Part shown: piece by piece, positions 57,828 through 63,666 of the stretch
How positions within the stretch are numbered: the first letter of the stretch is position 1
How the letters are laid out: each line of letters starts with the position of its first letter
NCBI RefSeq assembly: GCF_014196765.1
Contig: NZ_JACIEE010000001.1
Coordinates: forward strand, 434,001-498,000
Origin: Mycoplana azooxidifex
GTDB lineage: Bacteria > Pseudomonadota > Alphaproteobacteria > Rhizobiales > Rhizobiaceae
DNA length: 64,000 bases
Reading direction: 5' to 3'
Notes under the pieces: model-generated
Told to the model about the DNA's origin: nothing
Seen by the model: the letters and a program-made list of their open reading frames with translations, nothing else
Databases searched by the model: none
Program-made: the position numbers and the translations under genes

Positions 57828-58139
57828 TCAGGCGAGCGCGCCGAGCTTGTCCAGTTCCTTGGCCGTCAGGTAATAGAAGGTGACGCGCGACTTCGTGCGG
57901 TCGTCGGCCATGGCGGTGCAGACCTTCTCGACCGCCTTGTCGGCCGCGTCGCCCGTCACGCCGAGCTTCTTGCCGCACCATTTCTCCTTCACCCGATCCA
58001 GTTCCTCGGGATCGGAGCAGGAGACGAGCGAGGAATCGCGATTGCGCAACGCGATCCCCAGATGACTGACGATCTTCTTCACGACGGCCTCGTCGGCGCC
58101 ACTGTCATACTTGCGAACATCTGCCAGATAGTCGGTCAT
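57828..58139 (-). CDS. DUF2853 family protein
   Basis: 103 residues from the ATG at 58139, preceded by AGGAGACAGC. The sequence opens MTDYLADVRKYDSGADEAVV and matches the small helical DUF2853 family of alphaproteobacteria and others. It holds two cysteines (SCSDPEEL, KEKWCGKK) plus one in VCTAMADD. No signal peptide. Function unknown; it stands alone between thyA and ssrA. Confidence 0.88.
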   Translation of the reverse strand: MTDYLADVRKYDSGADEAVVKKIVSHLGIALRNRDSSLVSCSDPEELDRVKEKWCGKKLGVTGDAADKAVEKVCTAMADDRTKSRVTFYYLTAKELDKLGALA

Positions 58140-58339
58140 GCTGTCTCCTCTTTTCAGTTGGCCCGACAGGCCGGGTCGATATGTGAGCAATCCGATGTGT
58201 GAATGGATTCATTGCTCTAGGGGTCAACGCCGGCAGTGTTTCACGCAAAGATGGCAAGTCAAGCGTAATCCCGTTCGCAAGCTGGTTTTCAACCGCCCGC
58301 CTGCCTCAAAAAATGTCATAAAGACCTTTTCTTGGGCCT

Positions 58340-58690
58340 CGGAAGCGCCTATATCTCTGCTGCTGCCTCGTGCAGCTATGGCAATAAACGGGCGGTGTAA
58401 TAAACCCATTGGACCCGGGGGCGGTACCCGGCGCCTCCACCAAAAACCGATCTTTCGCGATCGGCTTTTGATGGGGGCGAAATAGGATCGACAAGGGCGT
58501 AAAGATCGACTTTTTGCTCGGCATTGTACCACCGTTATCGGGCTAAAATTGTAGTTGCAAACGACAACTATGCTGAAGCACGTCTCGCTGCCTAACGGCG
58601 GTGCGACACTTCAAATCAAGTCCTTGCGGGTAGCACTGTAAGGCGGGGTCCGAAGGCACCTGGCAACAGAAGCCTTCACCTTCTCCCCTC
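58340..58690 (+). ncRNA. ssrA: Transfer-messenger RNA, permuted two-piece form
   Basis: The acceptor piece comes first and ends CGCCTCC-A-CCA at 58442. After a 30-base intervening segment with a CCGATC/GATCGG hairpin, the coding piece begins GGGGGCG at 58473. The two ends pair as a 7-bp acceptor stem including the tmRNA-specific G3-U pair. The coding piece carries the tag frame A-N-D-N-Y-A-E-A-R-L-A-A at 58557-58592 and stop TAA at 58593. The outer ends are estimates. It rescues stalled ribosomes and marks the product for proteolysis. The sspB gene follows about 165 bp later. Confidence 0.93.
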
Positions 58691-58854
58691 TTTCGAAATG
58701 GTTTATAGCTGTCATTCGGGATGACTCGCAGCGGGCGAACGCCTCGAGGAATAACGGGCCGGAAACGGCCGATCGCGTTTGACGCCGGCGCCGGTTTTCG
58801 GCAAAAGGCAAAAAATGTGAACAGAAGTGTGAAACAGCAGAAAGACGGGCTCTG

Positions 58855-59379
58855 ATGGCGCAAGACCACATCCGCTACGACATACTCGCCCAGGACGCCC
58901 TCCGCAGCGTCATCCGCAAAGTCCTGACCGAAGTGGCGGCAACGGGCCACCTTCCCGGCGACCATCATTTCTTCATCACCTTTCTCACCGGCGCGCCGGG
59001 CGTGCGCATCTCGCAGCACCTGAAGTCCAAGTATCCCGAGCAGATGACCATCGTCATCCAGCACCAGTTCTGGGACCTGAAGATCACCGAGAGCCTGTTC
59101 GAGATCGGCCTCTCCTTCTCTGATACGCCCGAAAAACTCGTGATCCCCTTCAACGCCATTCGCGGCTTCTACGACCCCTCGGTCAGTTTCGAGCTCGAGT
59201 TCGACGTCGCAGCCGGCGAAGAGGAGGAGGAGGACGAAGCCGCTTCCGCCGAAATCACCGCCTATCCGGTCGAAAAGACCGAGGAAGCCGACGGCGAGAC
59301 AGTTGCTGCGGGCGAGGACGGCGAGAAGAAGCCCGGAGGTTCCGTCGTTTCGCTCGATTCCTTCCGCAAGAAGAACTGA
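58855..59379 (+). CDS. sspB: ClpXP adaptor SspB (alpha-type)
   Basis: 174 residues. The substrate-binding domain is at about 5-120 (VLTEVAATGHLPGDHHFFITF, ISQHLKSKYPEQMTIVIQHQFWDL, VIPFNAIRGFYDPSV). An acidic flexible linker (~122-160) leads to a C-terminal ClpX-binding tail GSVVSLDSFRKKN. It captures proteins bearing the ssrA tag and delivers them to ClpXP. The tmRNA gene is immediately upstream, so tagging and adaptor functions are neighbours. It is followed 10 bp later by a DUF4169 gene. Confidence 0.95.
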   Translation: MAQDHIRYDILAQDALRSVIRKVLTEVAATGHLPGDHHFFITFLTGAPGVRISQHLKSKYPEQMTIVIQHQFWDLKITESLFEIGLSFSDTPEKLVIPFNAIRGFYDPSVSFELEFDVAAGEEEEEDEAASAEITAYPVEKTEEADGETVAAGEDGEKKPGGSVVSLDSFRKKN

Positions 59380-59389
59380 CGGAGGCGGC

Positions 59390-59575
59390 ATGAGCGGCGA
59401 CGTCGTCAATCTCCGCCAGTTCCGCAAGCAGAAGGCCCGTTCCGACAAGGAGCGACAGGCCGAGCAGAACCGCATCGCCCACGGCCGCACGAAGGCGGAA
59501 AAGACCCTCACCCGCGCCCTGAACGACAAGGCGGAAAAGTCTTTGGACCAGGGGCGCATCGACAAGCCGGAATGA
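59390..59575 (+). CDS. DUF4169 family protein
   Basis: 61 residues from the ATG at 59390, with GGAGGCGG upstream and 10 bp after the sspB stop. Highly charged and probably helical throughout (KARSDKERQAEQNRIAHGRT, then KAEKTLTRAL). The N-terminus MSGDVVNLRQFRKQK strongly resembles the SspB tail SVVSLDSFRKKN. Function unknown. Co-transcription with sspB and the shared motif suggest a link with ClpX, which is inference. Confidence 0.85.
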   Translation: MSGDVVNLRQFRKQKARSDKERQAEQNRIAHGRTKAEKTLTRALNDKAEKSLDQGRIDKPE

Positions 59576-59666: not shown

Positions 59667-59891
59667 GTGATCCGCAAGCATTCCGCCACCCTGCACGGCC
59701 ACCGCACCAGCTTCAGCCTGGAGGAGCCCTTCTGGCTGGAACTGAAGGCCATAGCCGCCACCCGCCGAATGGCGCTTGCCGAACTGCTTTGCGAAATCGA
59801 CGACGCCCGGCCGCCAGAGAGCAATCTGTCCTCGGCATTGCGTGTCTATGTGCTGGACACACTGAAGCGGAAAGACGGCTCCGAAGCCTGA
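59667..59891 (+). CDS. Ribbon-helix-helix domain protein
   Basis: 74 residues from a GTG at 59667. The sequence RTSFSLEEPFWLELKAIAATRRMALAELL is the strand-helix-helix of the RHH_4 type, with the C-terminal helix SNLSSALRVYVLDTLKR. Such small proteins bind DNA as dimers or serve as antitoxin-like regulators; no toxin gene is next to it. It follows the DUF4169 gene by 91 bp and may belong to the sspB operon. Confidence 0.85.
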   Translation: MIRKHSATLHGHRTSFSLEEPFWLELKAIAATRRMALAELLCEIDDARPPESNLSSALRVYVLDTLKRKDGSEA

Positions 59892-59931: not shown

Positions 59932-62900
59932 TCAGTTCACCCCCGGAAGCGAATCGAAATTGAGACGCTGGCCGCTGACCGGCGGCAATGGCTCCCGCAC
60001 GACGCCTTCCTCGGGAGCGACACGGAAACCGCCCTCGGGCGCAGCCTGCTGTCGCCGCTTCTCCGCGGCCTGCTTCTCCGCAGCCAGGCGCTCCGCCTCC
60101 AGCCTCGCACGTTCTTCGGCCCGCTGGCGTTCGACCTCCAGTCGTGTCGCTTCGCGCCGGCGTTCTTCCTCCAGCATCTGCAGGCGCGTGGCCTCGGCCA
60201 GCGCCGCCCTCTGCTCGGCGCGCGACCGGTAGAGCGCCGCCTCGCGGCGCAGGCGCTGCTTTTCCAGCATGCTCGACTGCAGCATCTCCACCCGCCGCCG
60301 CTCGCGCTCGAAGCGGCGCAGCGACAGGTAGCTGGTGAGCGGCTGCGCATCGAGGCGCACCCGCGGCGCAGCAAGCGGCCCTTCGAAGACGAGCGCCACT
60401 TCGGGCTCGCCGCCGGTCATCGCCTCCTCGCCGGCCCGCAGGCGCATGACGAGCTGGCCCTGCAAGGTCCGGTCGGCCAGGCCAATCTCGGCTGCGCCGT
60501 TAAAGCTCGCCGCCCCGTCGCCCCCGGTAATCGTATCGGCACGCACCCGGCCTGATGCGATCGTAAACGGGATGGTCACCGTGCCGAGCGAGACGTCGCC
60601 GCCGAGCGCCTGCTCCCGCGCGATCGTCTCGACGCTGCCCTCGCCGATCTCGCCGTCGATCGCGTCCGCGGCAGACAGGATCGCGCCGAAGCCGCCGCTC
60701 TTGATCCCCCGCAGCCGCAGCTCCTCGAGTTGGGCCTCGCCGGACCCGCTCGCCGCCGCAACCATGTCCGCGATGCTCGCGCCCGAGGCGTCCAGCGCCA
60801 GGTTCACGAAGGCCTTGCCCTCGGCCACCGGGCCGGCCTCGCCGCTCCAGACGAGTTGCGAGAGGGCGGCGCCCGCGAGCGTCACCCGCGCTTCCAGAAG
60901 ACCGTTGGTCCCGGCATTCGCCAGTTTCAGCCGGCCGCCGACCCTTCCGCCGAGCCAGTCACCGCCGATTTCTTCCAGCGCGAGGTCCCCGCCCGTCCAG
61001 GCGAGCCTCGCTGCAAAATTCTCGACCGGGCCGTAGAGCCCCGTCCAGAACTGGCCGGCGGCAAGCCGCAACCGGAAATCGGCATTCTCGCGCGCCGGGC
61101 TGCCGATCGCAGCACGGCTGAAGCCGAGCCCCTCCATATCGTCGACGGGACCGAGCACGGCTTCTGCGAGCCAGGCGAGATCGACCGTGTCGAAGGTCAG
61201 GCTGCCTGTTCCCTTGGGGATCTCGGCCGTGCGGTCCAGCGCAAGCTCGCCCGAGACACCGTTGCGGTTAACCGTCCCGGAGATGTCGGCAAGGCGGACG
61301 GTTCCGGCATCGATGGTCGCCCTCGCCTTCAGCGCCACGGGAAGGCCGGTGCCGGTCTGCGGCAGCACGATGTCGTTCATCACCAGGTAGGGTTCGATGT
61401 CGCCGGCGTCAGCCGACAGGTCCAGCTCGCCTTCAAGGAAATGCTCTGCCGAAAGGTCCGCCGTTCCCTCCGCGGTAATCGAGGTGGCGCTCGTCGTGAA
61501 GGAGACGTTGAGATCGGCAGCCGCACCGCCGGCAGGCTGCGAGACCTTGATCGCGACCGTACCGTCCGCCTCGGCGTCGAATGGCAGCGGCTGGAGGCCG
61601 AGCTGGCCGGCGAGCACCACCGTTCGCGGATTGGTTAGGGTCGCCTCCGCCTCGATGTTGCCGCCCGCGAGGAAGTCGCCGAAATTGCCGGCAGACGCGC
61701 GCGCCTCGATGCGCCCGCCATTGGCAGTCCCGGACACGATCAGGCCGATCGGTCCGTCGCTGCTCCCCGGCAGGGCCAGCGTCATCTTCAGGTCGGCGCC
61801 GTCATAGTAGCCGGCGCTCGCGACCAGGCGAGCAACCGCCGGATGCGCAGGCAGATGCCGCGCCAGCATCTCCATGACCGGCTGCATCTGCTCCGCGCGC
61901 ATCGACAGGTCCAGCCCCGCCGAGGGCAGGGCCAGCGTGCCGCCGAGCTGGCCCTTGATCGAAGCGGATGCGCCCGCGATCGAGCCGATGTCCAACCGGC
62001 TCACGCTCAAGGCGCCATCCCTCAGCGTCAGCAGCGCATCGACCTTGCTCGCCTCCTCGCCGAAGGCGGTGAACCGCTCGGCCTTCAGGTCGAGCGCGAT
62101 GGAATGGCCAAGCAGCACGTCTGCGGAAGCTTCGCCCGCCACGAGCCCCGCTAGCGCCCGCAGCGTCTCGATCTCGACTGTGTCGCCGCCGAGCTGGATG
62201 GAGAGGCTGGGCGCGTCGTCGTTGGGCGACTGGCGTTCGATCCGGCCCTTCAGCGTCGCGCCGCCGGCGGCGATCTCCAGGTTCTCGAAACGCTGGACCT
62301 GGTCCGTCAGTTCGACTTCCGCGGCAAAGCCCGCACTGCGCAGCCTGCGGATCTCCGGATCGACCGAGCCGGCAGCCCAGGCGGCAAAGCCGGAGGGCTG
62401 GTTCGAGGCGACCAGCAGATCGCCGACGAAGGCGCGCGTACCCTTGAGCGTCAGCCGTCCCTTTGCATCGACGGTGGTGCGGCCCGGAAATTGCGCGGTT
62501 CCGTGCGCCACCGTCCAGCCGTCGCCGTCCGGCTCCACGTCGAGCATGACATCGCGAATGGTCGTGTCGCCGACGACGATCGCCGGCAGTTTCAGGCTCG
62601 CCCGCCCCGGCACCTGCGGCACAGGTATGTCGGCCAGGATCGAAAGCAGCCCCTCCAGGCGCTGGCGCGCCGAGGTCTGCGCGTTGCGCCCCGTCTTGCC
62701 CTGTTCGCCGTTGCGGCCGATCCGGCTGACGTCGATCTGCTGGCCGTCGGCGATCAGCAGAAACTCGGGCTGCTTGCCGGTATCGAGCGTCGCCTCTCCG
62801 GTGACGAGATAGGGATCCGCCGGATCGCCGGCCTGGAGAGTGTAGCGGGGAACGCGCAGGCGGTCGTTGGAGAGTTCGAAATCTCCGCCGACGCGGATCG

Positions 62901-63666
62901 GGTTCGGCGCCGGCTTGCCGTCGGCGGCCGGCTTCTGCCCGAGCGCGAAAGTGCCCCGATACTGCGGCCTGAAATCCACGACCTCGAGGTCGCCGTCGAG
63001 ATCGACAGTGAAGCCGATCTGGTCGGGGACCACGCGCGCCTTCATCTTCAGCACGCCGCGCTCGTCTGTCTGCCCCGTCGATATCTGGAAGGCACCGGCG
63101 TTGCCGTCGAGCACGCCGCGGCCGTCGATGCGCCACGGCCCGTTCAGCGAGCGCGCCGACATCCGGGCGTCGAGGGTGCTGATACGGCGCGTGCGGCCGG
63201 CCTGCTCGTCGATGAACTCGATCTCGCCGCCGGTCACCGCCACGTTCTCGAGCACGACGGTCTTGGCCGGAATGTCGGACTTGCGCCCGCGCGCCCAGTC
63301 GAGCGTGCCGTCGGCCATGAGCTTCAGGCGCACCCTCGGCTCGTCGATGCGCATGTCGAAGATCAGCGCCTCTCCGCTCAGGAACGGCGCCAGCTCCGCA
63401 TCCATGGAGAACCTGCGAATGGTGATGGCCGCGTCGCCGCCCTCGTCCTCGCCGACGCGGACGTCGTGCAGGGTAACGGAGGGAAAGGGGATGAGCCTTG
63501 CATCCACCTTGCCGTGGACGACGACGTTGCGGCCGACGATCCGGCTCGCCTCGCGCTCGAAATCCTGGCGGAATCCCGTCCAGTCGATGAAGTACGGGGC
63601 CAGCAGTGCGCCGAACAGCGCCAGCACGACCAGACCGCCAATCGCCAACATCACACGTGCGAGCAC
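59932..63666 (-). CDS. AsmA-family protein with a C-terminal charged coiled coil
   Basis: 1244 residues. An N-terminal membrane anchor (MLAIGGLVVLALFGALLAPY) is followed by the AsmA opening DWTGFRQDFEREASRIVGRNVVVHGKV and a long beta-rich periplasmic body with the AsmA-like C-terminal region (GASIADMVAAASGSGEAQL, ADTITGGDGAASFNGAAEI). Relatives form bridge-like lipid-transfer or assembly proteins between membranes. The last ~120 residues after the beta region are an Arg/Glu/Ala-rich coiled coil, then a Pro-rich end. The gene stands between the RHH gene and an FAD oxidase. Confidence 0.9.
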   Translation of the reverse strand: MLARVMLAIGGLVVLALFGALLAPYFIDWTGFRQDFEREASRIVGRNVVVHGKVDARLIPFPSVTLHDVRVGEDEGGDAAITIRRFSMDAELAPFLSGEALIFDMRIDEPRVRLKLMADGTLDWARGRKSDIPAKTVVLENVAVTGGEIEFIDEQAGRTRRISTLDARMSARSLNGPWRIDGRGVLDGNAGAFQISTGQTDERGVLKMKARVVPDQIGFTVDLDGDLEVVDFRPQYRGTFALGQKPAADGKPAPNPIRVGGDFELSNDRLRVPRYTLQAGDPADPYLVTGEATLDTGKQPEFLLIADGQQIDVSRIGRNGEQGKTGRNAQTSARQRLEGLLSILADIPVPQVPGRASLKLPAIVVGDTTIRDVMLDVEPDGDGWTVAHGTAQFPGRTTVDAKGRLTLKGTRAFVGDLLVASNQPSGFAAWAAGSVDPEIRRLRSAGFAAEVELTDQVQRFENLEIAAGGATLKGRIERQSPNDDAPSLSIQLGGDTVEIETLRALAGLVAGEASADVLLGHSIALDLKAERFTAFGEEASKVDALLTLRDGALSVSRLDIGSIAGASASIKGQLGGTLALPSAGLDLSMRAEQMQPVMEMLARHLPAHPAVARLVASAGYYDGADLKMTLALPGSSDGPIGLIVSGTANGGRIEARASAGNFGDFLAGGNIEAEATLTNPRTVVLAGQLGLQPLPFDAEADGTVAIKVSQPAGGAAADLNVSFTTSATSITAEGTADLSAEHFLEGELDLSADAGDIEPYLVMNDIVLPQTGTGLPVALKARATIDAGTVRLADISGTVNRNGVSGELALDRTAEIPKGTGSLTFDTVDLAWLAEAVLGPVDDMEGLGFSRAAIGSPARENADFRLRLAAGQFWTGLYGPVENFAARLAWTGGDLALEEIGGDWLGGRVGGRLKLANAGTNGLLEARVTLAGAALSQLVWSGEAGPVAEGKAFVNLALDASGASIADMVAAASGSGEAQLEELRLRGIKSGGFGAILSAADAIDGEIGEGSVETIAREQALGGDVSLGTVTIPFTIASGRVRADTITGGDGAASFNGAAEIGLADRTLQGQLVMRLRAGEEAMTGGEPEVALVFEGPLAAPRVRLDAQPLTSYLSLRRFERERRRVEMLQSSMLEKQRLRREAALYRSRAEQRAALAEATRLQMLEEERRREATRLEVERQRAEERARLEAERLAAEKQAAEKRRQQAAPEGGFRVAPEEGVVREPLPPVSGQRLNFDSLPGVN

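Follow-up and report, generated by a model that had tools for sequence, protein, structure and literature searches.

The window, the whole stretch of 64,000 nucleotides of Mycoplana azooxidifex DNA that was analysed, carries on one strand the genes for tmRNA, the ClpXP adaptor SspB, a small DUF4169 protein and a ribbon-helix-helix protein (Table 1). The SspB protein ends in ...GGSVVSLDSFRKKN, that is, VVSLDSFRKK(N), and the DUF4169 protein, the start codon of which lies 10 bp beyond the sspB stop codon, begins with MSGDVVNLRQFRKQK. As read from the sequence, one end of DUF4169 carries a docking motif like that of the SspB tail, and this is the N terminus, not the C terminus as in the SspB family. 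The original prediction had pointed to the resemblance between the SspB tail and the start of the adjacent DUF4169 protein; the likeness and the spacing stand, but the DVVNL segment starts at residue 4 and not at residue 1. The DUF4169 protein scores 82.1 bits against PF13770, for which the curated cut-off is 25; this is its only Pfam match, and the SspB domain PF04386 is absent from it. The closest named DUF4169 among the matches listed is that of Rhizobium sp. GN54, of the order Hyphomicrobiales, with 97% identity. Because a consensus scan found neither a promoter-like site nor a plus-strand terminator-like site between positions 58650 and 60000, sspB and the DUF4169 gene are likely to be co-transcribed, as their spacing suggests. 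The tmRNA gene adjoins the gene of its adaptor SspB (58323-59379), and a DUF2853 gene on the minus strand (57828-58145) lies directly before it. tmRNA was found near sspB in 9 of 12 hand-picked related loci; in three of the 12, the sequence ahead of sspB was only about 800 bp long, and the misses therefore weigh little.

Table 1. Features at the sspB-DUF4169 locus (positions within the window)
Feature	Position	Strand	Basis
ssrA (permuted alphaproteobacterial tmRNA), tag ANDNYAEARLAA	58323..58686	+	ARAGORN 58348-58686; Rfam alpha_tmRNA 58323-58680, 308 bits
sspB, ClpXP adaptor, 174 aa	58855..59379	+	ORF; PF04386 E 1.2e-49; PDB chains 2nys (E 2.4e-82), 2qas, 2qaz
SspB C-terminal motif VVSLDSFRKK (ClpX-binding tail by homology)	59344..59373	+	sequence; column counts, 111/112 tails
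GGAGG, ribosome-binding-site-like, ahead of DUF4169 start	59381..59385	+	sequence
DUF4169 protein, 61 aa	59390..59575	+	ATG within longer TTG frame 59303-59575; PF13770 E 3.3e-23
VVNLRQFRKQ, SspB-tail-like motif, DUF4169 N terminus	59402..59431	+	profile scores, column counts
DUF4169 second conserved block, residues 24-38 (A24, N27, R28, G32, GRTKAEK)	59459..59503	+	alignments; surrounds hinge that joins the two predicted helices
Ribbon-helix-helix (RHH_4) protein, 74 aa, next after DUF4169	59667..59891	+	PF13467 E 4.5e-23
AsmA-like protein, convergent in window	59932..63666	-	family search

The likeness between the SspB tail and the DUF4169 start is real and conserved. It was assessed with a profile of 55 distinct SspB tails, drawn from 111 of the 112 genomes in which the tail was read, against every 10-mer in 3,353 other reading frames with a length of 100 codons or more; this background comes from the window and the fetched loci, shadow reading frames included, and is not a whole proteome. 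With its own SspB tail excluded from the profile, the VVNLRQFRKQ segment of DUF4169 scored 19.6, against 11.7 for the best background 10-mer, and none of the 712,607 background 10-mers equalled it. Reciprocally, when a DUF4169 profile was applied to the SspB tail of the window, 4 of the 712,607 background 10-mers scored as high; over 107 SspB tails, the median p was 1e-5, and 94 of the 107 fell under 1e-4. Across the class, the top tail-like 10-mer lies at one common N-terminal position in 98 of 104 DUF4169 proteins, with a median empirical p of 4e-6 against the SspB-tail profile and p<1e-4 in 96 of the 104, and exactly three residues precede the motif in 85 of 101.

A strict pattern for the motif in DNA (aliphatic pair, L/F, F-R/S-K) has three matches in the 5.88 Mb of the genome itself: sspB, the DUF4169 gene and one further frame, which we judged to be non-coding and which runs against a 190-residue frame that we take for the real gene. 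The strict motif was matched in 66 of 76 genomes of the class, and at least seven known DUF4169 positions are among the matches listed. Fifty strict-motif loci were read, 30 taken from the search and 20 hand-picked among matches without an obvious sspB or DUF4169 identity; SspB was found by HMM in 10 of them and DUF4169 in none. Several of the remaining loci have the motif in frame within long proteins, two of which, recognised by eye, look like glycine hydroxymethyltransferase, and many have it in short frames beneath a longer rival frame.

Residue by residue, the match is partial. The ten columns of the SspB tail (n=111) are V107/I4, V97/I11, S41/T35/A25, L105, D107, variable, F105, R109, K102 and K95, whereas those of DUF4169 (n=101) are I50/V40, V65/I33, N100, L101, N55/R37, variable, F34/A34/V12, R95/K6, K100 and variable. 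The SspB counts leave out one tail of 112 (G053), the core of which was cut by the 16-residue span used for the comparison, and the DUF4169 counts leave out three proteins of 104, namely G227, for which no start codon was found nearby, and G009 and G143, which have a divergent start. Common to both families are the aliphatic pair, the Leu and the Arg-Lys; columns 3, 5 and 7 differ systematically, being S/T/A, D and F in SspB and N, N/R and F/A/V in DUF4169. The Phe and Asp of SspB are thus mostly replaced in DUF4169, Phe being present in 105 of 111 SspB tails but in 34 of 101 DUF4169 proteins. In G066, the DUF4169 start is IVNLRRARKE. Within the Rhizobiaceae, Phe is retained in 74 of 80 DUF4169 sequences, and the shared residues are constant while synonymous codons vary. 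Linkage to sspB was considered as a cause of the retained Phe and set aside, the difference being weak (13 of 30 near sspB versus 19 of 68 not near). The determinants in Caulobacter SspB reportedly span 10 residues, in work by Chowdhury from 2010, and the E. coli SspB tail has a different sequence. In G009 and G143 (loci L074 and L075), the divergent DUF4169 start reads NIVDFGSARKN, and the remaining family pattern is intact.

Among 385 genomes of the class, DUF4169 was found in 157 and SspB in 338; therefore, at least 181 of the 385 have SspB without DUF4169. In a sample of the phylum, DUF4169 occurred in 55 of 67 Alphaproteobacteria versus none of 182 other Pseudomonadota. Positions were listed for 149 of the 157 DUF4169 genomes and 150 of the 338 SspB genomes, and for both genes in 104 genomes, giving 105 pairs. 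Of these, 33 lie within 12.6 kb, with DUF4169 downstream on the same strand in every case, 18 lie further apart on one contig and 54 lie on different contigs. The immediate neighbourhood, taken as 700 bp around DUF4169 in the 104 genomes, holds a divergent asmA-like gene on the upstream side in 58, fumC on that side in 10 and sspB on that side in one, the genome of the window; none of the four families sought was found there in 32. Among near kin, sspB and DUF4169 are 3-132 bp apart in all 81 loci, comprising the 80 closest named relatives and the window. In 11 further loci of the same family or order, hand-picked from 27 rows, the gap is 8-50 bp in eight, one of them from a genome of 1.5 Mb, sspB lies 1.6-1.8 kb upstream on the same strand in two, and there is no sspB on that strand in one. 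Tight linkage to sspB is therefore a trait of the Rhizobiaceae and some genomes of the same order, and the commonest class-wide neighbour of DUF4169 is the asmA-like gene. The claim that DUF4169 adjoins sspB thus holds among near kin, but class-wide the gene is mostly elsewhere.

The N-terminal motif is also present where the two genes lie apart. In most of the 68 genomes scored as not near (not within 15 kb on one contig), sspB and DUF4169 are on separate contigs, which leaves the 18 same-contig genomes as the strictly distant ones; the DUF4169 start reached p<1e-4 against the SspB-tail profile in all 18 of these, and in 65 of the 68 when different-contig genes are included. The motif is therefore conserved across alphaproteobacterial orthologues beyond chance, at one fixed end of each family. 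The original prediction had named, as counter-evidence, that DUF4169 genes might lie mostly away from sspB and have a different N terminus; they do lie mostly away, but with the same start. A role of DUF4169 as a substitute for a lost SspB tail is ruled out, as the SspB tail or an altered form of it is present in all 101 genomes read at both ends. In four draft genomes (G187, G226, G231 and G312), SspB was not matched and DUF4169 bears the motif or a near version of it; the completeness of two of these drafts is below 80%.

On the side of the putative receptor, the core of the ClpX zinc domain is near-invariant in 30 alphaproteobacteria, the exceptions being a change of Met to Asn in family f15 and one of Arg to Lys elsewhere; therefore, one fixed receptor exists. 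The Asn was found in all six f15 genomes (L357-L362) versus none of the 24 others (L363-L385 and L204), and it also occupies that position in four solved ClpX domains among the alignments listed. All four SspB tails read in f15 are altered (VVxVDFxxKK), and the four DUF4169 proteins read there have the usual start including the Leu, single changes aside. A DNA pattern for the Asn-bearing ClpX occurs in 8 of the 385 class genomes, seven times in ClpX. The tie between the Asn and the altered tail is loose, because G019 combines the Asn in ClpX with the usual SspB tail VISLDSFRK. This small comparison argues mildly against identical binding modes for SspB and DUF4169.

A structural model of DUF4169 built from 58 sequences (pLDDT 74, pTM 0.34) shows neither helix nor strand in residues 1-7 and places helices at residues 8-31 and 35-54, joined by a Gly-Arg-Thr hinge; it suggests with modest confidence that the protein is a helical hairpin. 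In this model, the motif therefore spans the extended start and the first helical turns, a predicted arrangement that is compatible with docking, though it is no evidence for it. No useful relatives of DUF4169 were found in PDB, NCBIfam, PADLOC or PHROGs, and the weak matches that one or two of its members gave in Pfam resemble noise from helical sequence. In the accessible literature, one paper mentions DUF4169, where it serves as a plain gene label in the context of expression changes, and no link between DUF4169 and ClpX was found.

Taken together, the sequence likeness and the gene order in one family and its kin make docking of the DUF4169 N-terminal motif on the ClpX N-domain the most likely single explanation, to which we tentatively assign a probability of roughly 45%. 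The remainder of the protein, that is, the two predicted helices with the conserved Gly-Arg-Thr hinge, would then carry the working function. Because the second block of DUF4169 is conserved and its C-terminal residues are mostly charged, we lean towards a role as an accessory adaptor or modulator.

The known systems offer both precedent and caution for such docking. The SspB tail itself shares with DUF4169 the VVxLxxFRK core at a protein end, the neighbouring position of the genes in Rhizobiaceae and the bacterial class; in contrast, the DUF4169 motif is N-terminal, varies at the Phe and Asp positions and belongs to a protein that does not match the SspB model. According to the accessible part of one study, the SspB tail peptide and RssB compete for the ClpX N-domain, and the peptide blocks RssB-dependent degradation (PMC7226468). 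DUF4169 might likewise share a docking platform with RssB and other N-domain adaptors and so compete with SspB, but it is only 61 residues long and has no sequence kinship with them in the family libraries searched. The same accessible text describes an SspB-like C-terminal motif in E. coli RssB that was not bound by the ClpX domain (PMC7226468), which counts against the docking reading, because here a look-alike motif went unbound. CLIPPER degrader peptides, which carry an SspB-derived XB motif, indicate in the portion of the paper available that a short SspB tail peptide suffices for ClpXP recruitment, although these peptides, unlike DUF4169, are designed and were used in E. coli (PMC12373786). 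Use of the ClpX N-domain by an alphaproteobacterium is also described for CpdR, RcdA, PopA and SocA of Caulobacter, to which DUF4169 would then be comparable (PMC5422525, in the part accessible).

Several other explanations have to be weighed against docking as an adaptor. The N-terminal block may instead be an element of the DUF4169 fold (an extended aliphatic pair, an Asn helix cap and a basic helix) that serves some other partner (for example RNA, a membrane-linked protein or DUF4169 itself), with a convergent likeness to SspB. We consider this reading less likely than docking but a serious contender: N and L are near-invariant in DUF4169 while F is replaceable, the helix is predicted from L8, inside the motif, the asmA-like gene and not sspB is the commonest class-wide neighbour (58/104), and DUF4169 does not track the altered SspB tail and ClpX in f15. 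However, the strict motif is almost confined to SspB and DUF4169 in the genome itself, and profile p-values are low for many DUF4169 proteins without the Phe, including those of median rank. A further possibility is that DUF4169 is itself a ClpX substrate, for which the docking motif would be the tether that leads to its degradation. This appears improbable, as SspB has such a tail yet acts as an adaptor, and the mostly charged DUF4169 ends are unlike ssrA-type ends, which are hydrophobic. Nevertheless, eGFP fused to the SspB tail peptide is degraded moderately but steadily in a ClpXP-dependent manner, according to the available portion of the report (PMC12373786).

As the likeness was found by scanning the whole window, many pairs were implicitly compared, and two short basic termini could resemble each other by chance; the absence of any equal among 712,607 background 10-mers and the recurrence across the class make this very unlikely, even with some thousands of implicit comparisons, by our own estimate. 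The motif might alternatively be a local product of tandem duplication of a short stretch, or of gene conversion, between the end of sspB and the start of the next gene in this genome; the two 30-base segments begin 58 bp from each other and are identical at 19 positions of 30. We reject this origin as extremely unlikely, because genomes in which the genes are far apart have the same DUF4169 start (18/18); in addition, the residues are constant in the 80 Rhizobiaceae sequences, with varied synonymous codons.

If docking on the ClpX N-domain through residues 4-14 holds, it would provide the first function for the DUF4169 family. A new occupant of this site would matter for proteolysis in the cell cycle and in quality control, because the N-domain has an essential, species-specific role in Caulobacter, where ClpX without it does not support viability, as stated in the accessible part of the source (PMC5422525). 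A broader and rather unlikely reading is that, in Rhizobiaceae and some kin, ssrA, sspB and DUF4169 act together as one module for trans-translation and proteolysis. DUF4169 would be the second ClpX partner in this module, tethered through its N terminus and either competing or cooperating with SspB; the capacity of ClpXP for ssrA-tagged proteins would then depend on a protein that is produced together with the adaptor.

Matches to the ribbon-helix-helix family adjoin DUF4169 in other loci of the same order. In nine loci (L073, L074, L076, L081, L083, L084, L086, L091 and L092), sspB, fumC and RHH_4 are upstream of DUF4169, and an asmA-like gene lies at the DUF4169 start on the opposite strand; L073 is the locus in which this arrangement was read in detail. 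DUF4169 may have moved, because in the window it is on the other side of asmA than in these nine loci. In a genome of the same family with a size of 1.5 Mb (G450, locus L354), sspB and DUF4169 have been retained side by side, 12 bp apart, despite the small size.
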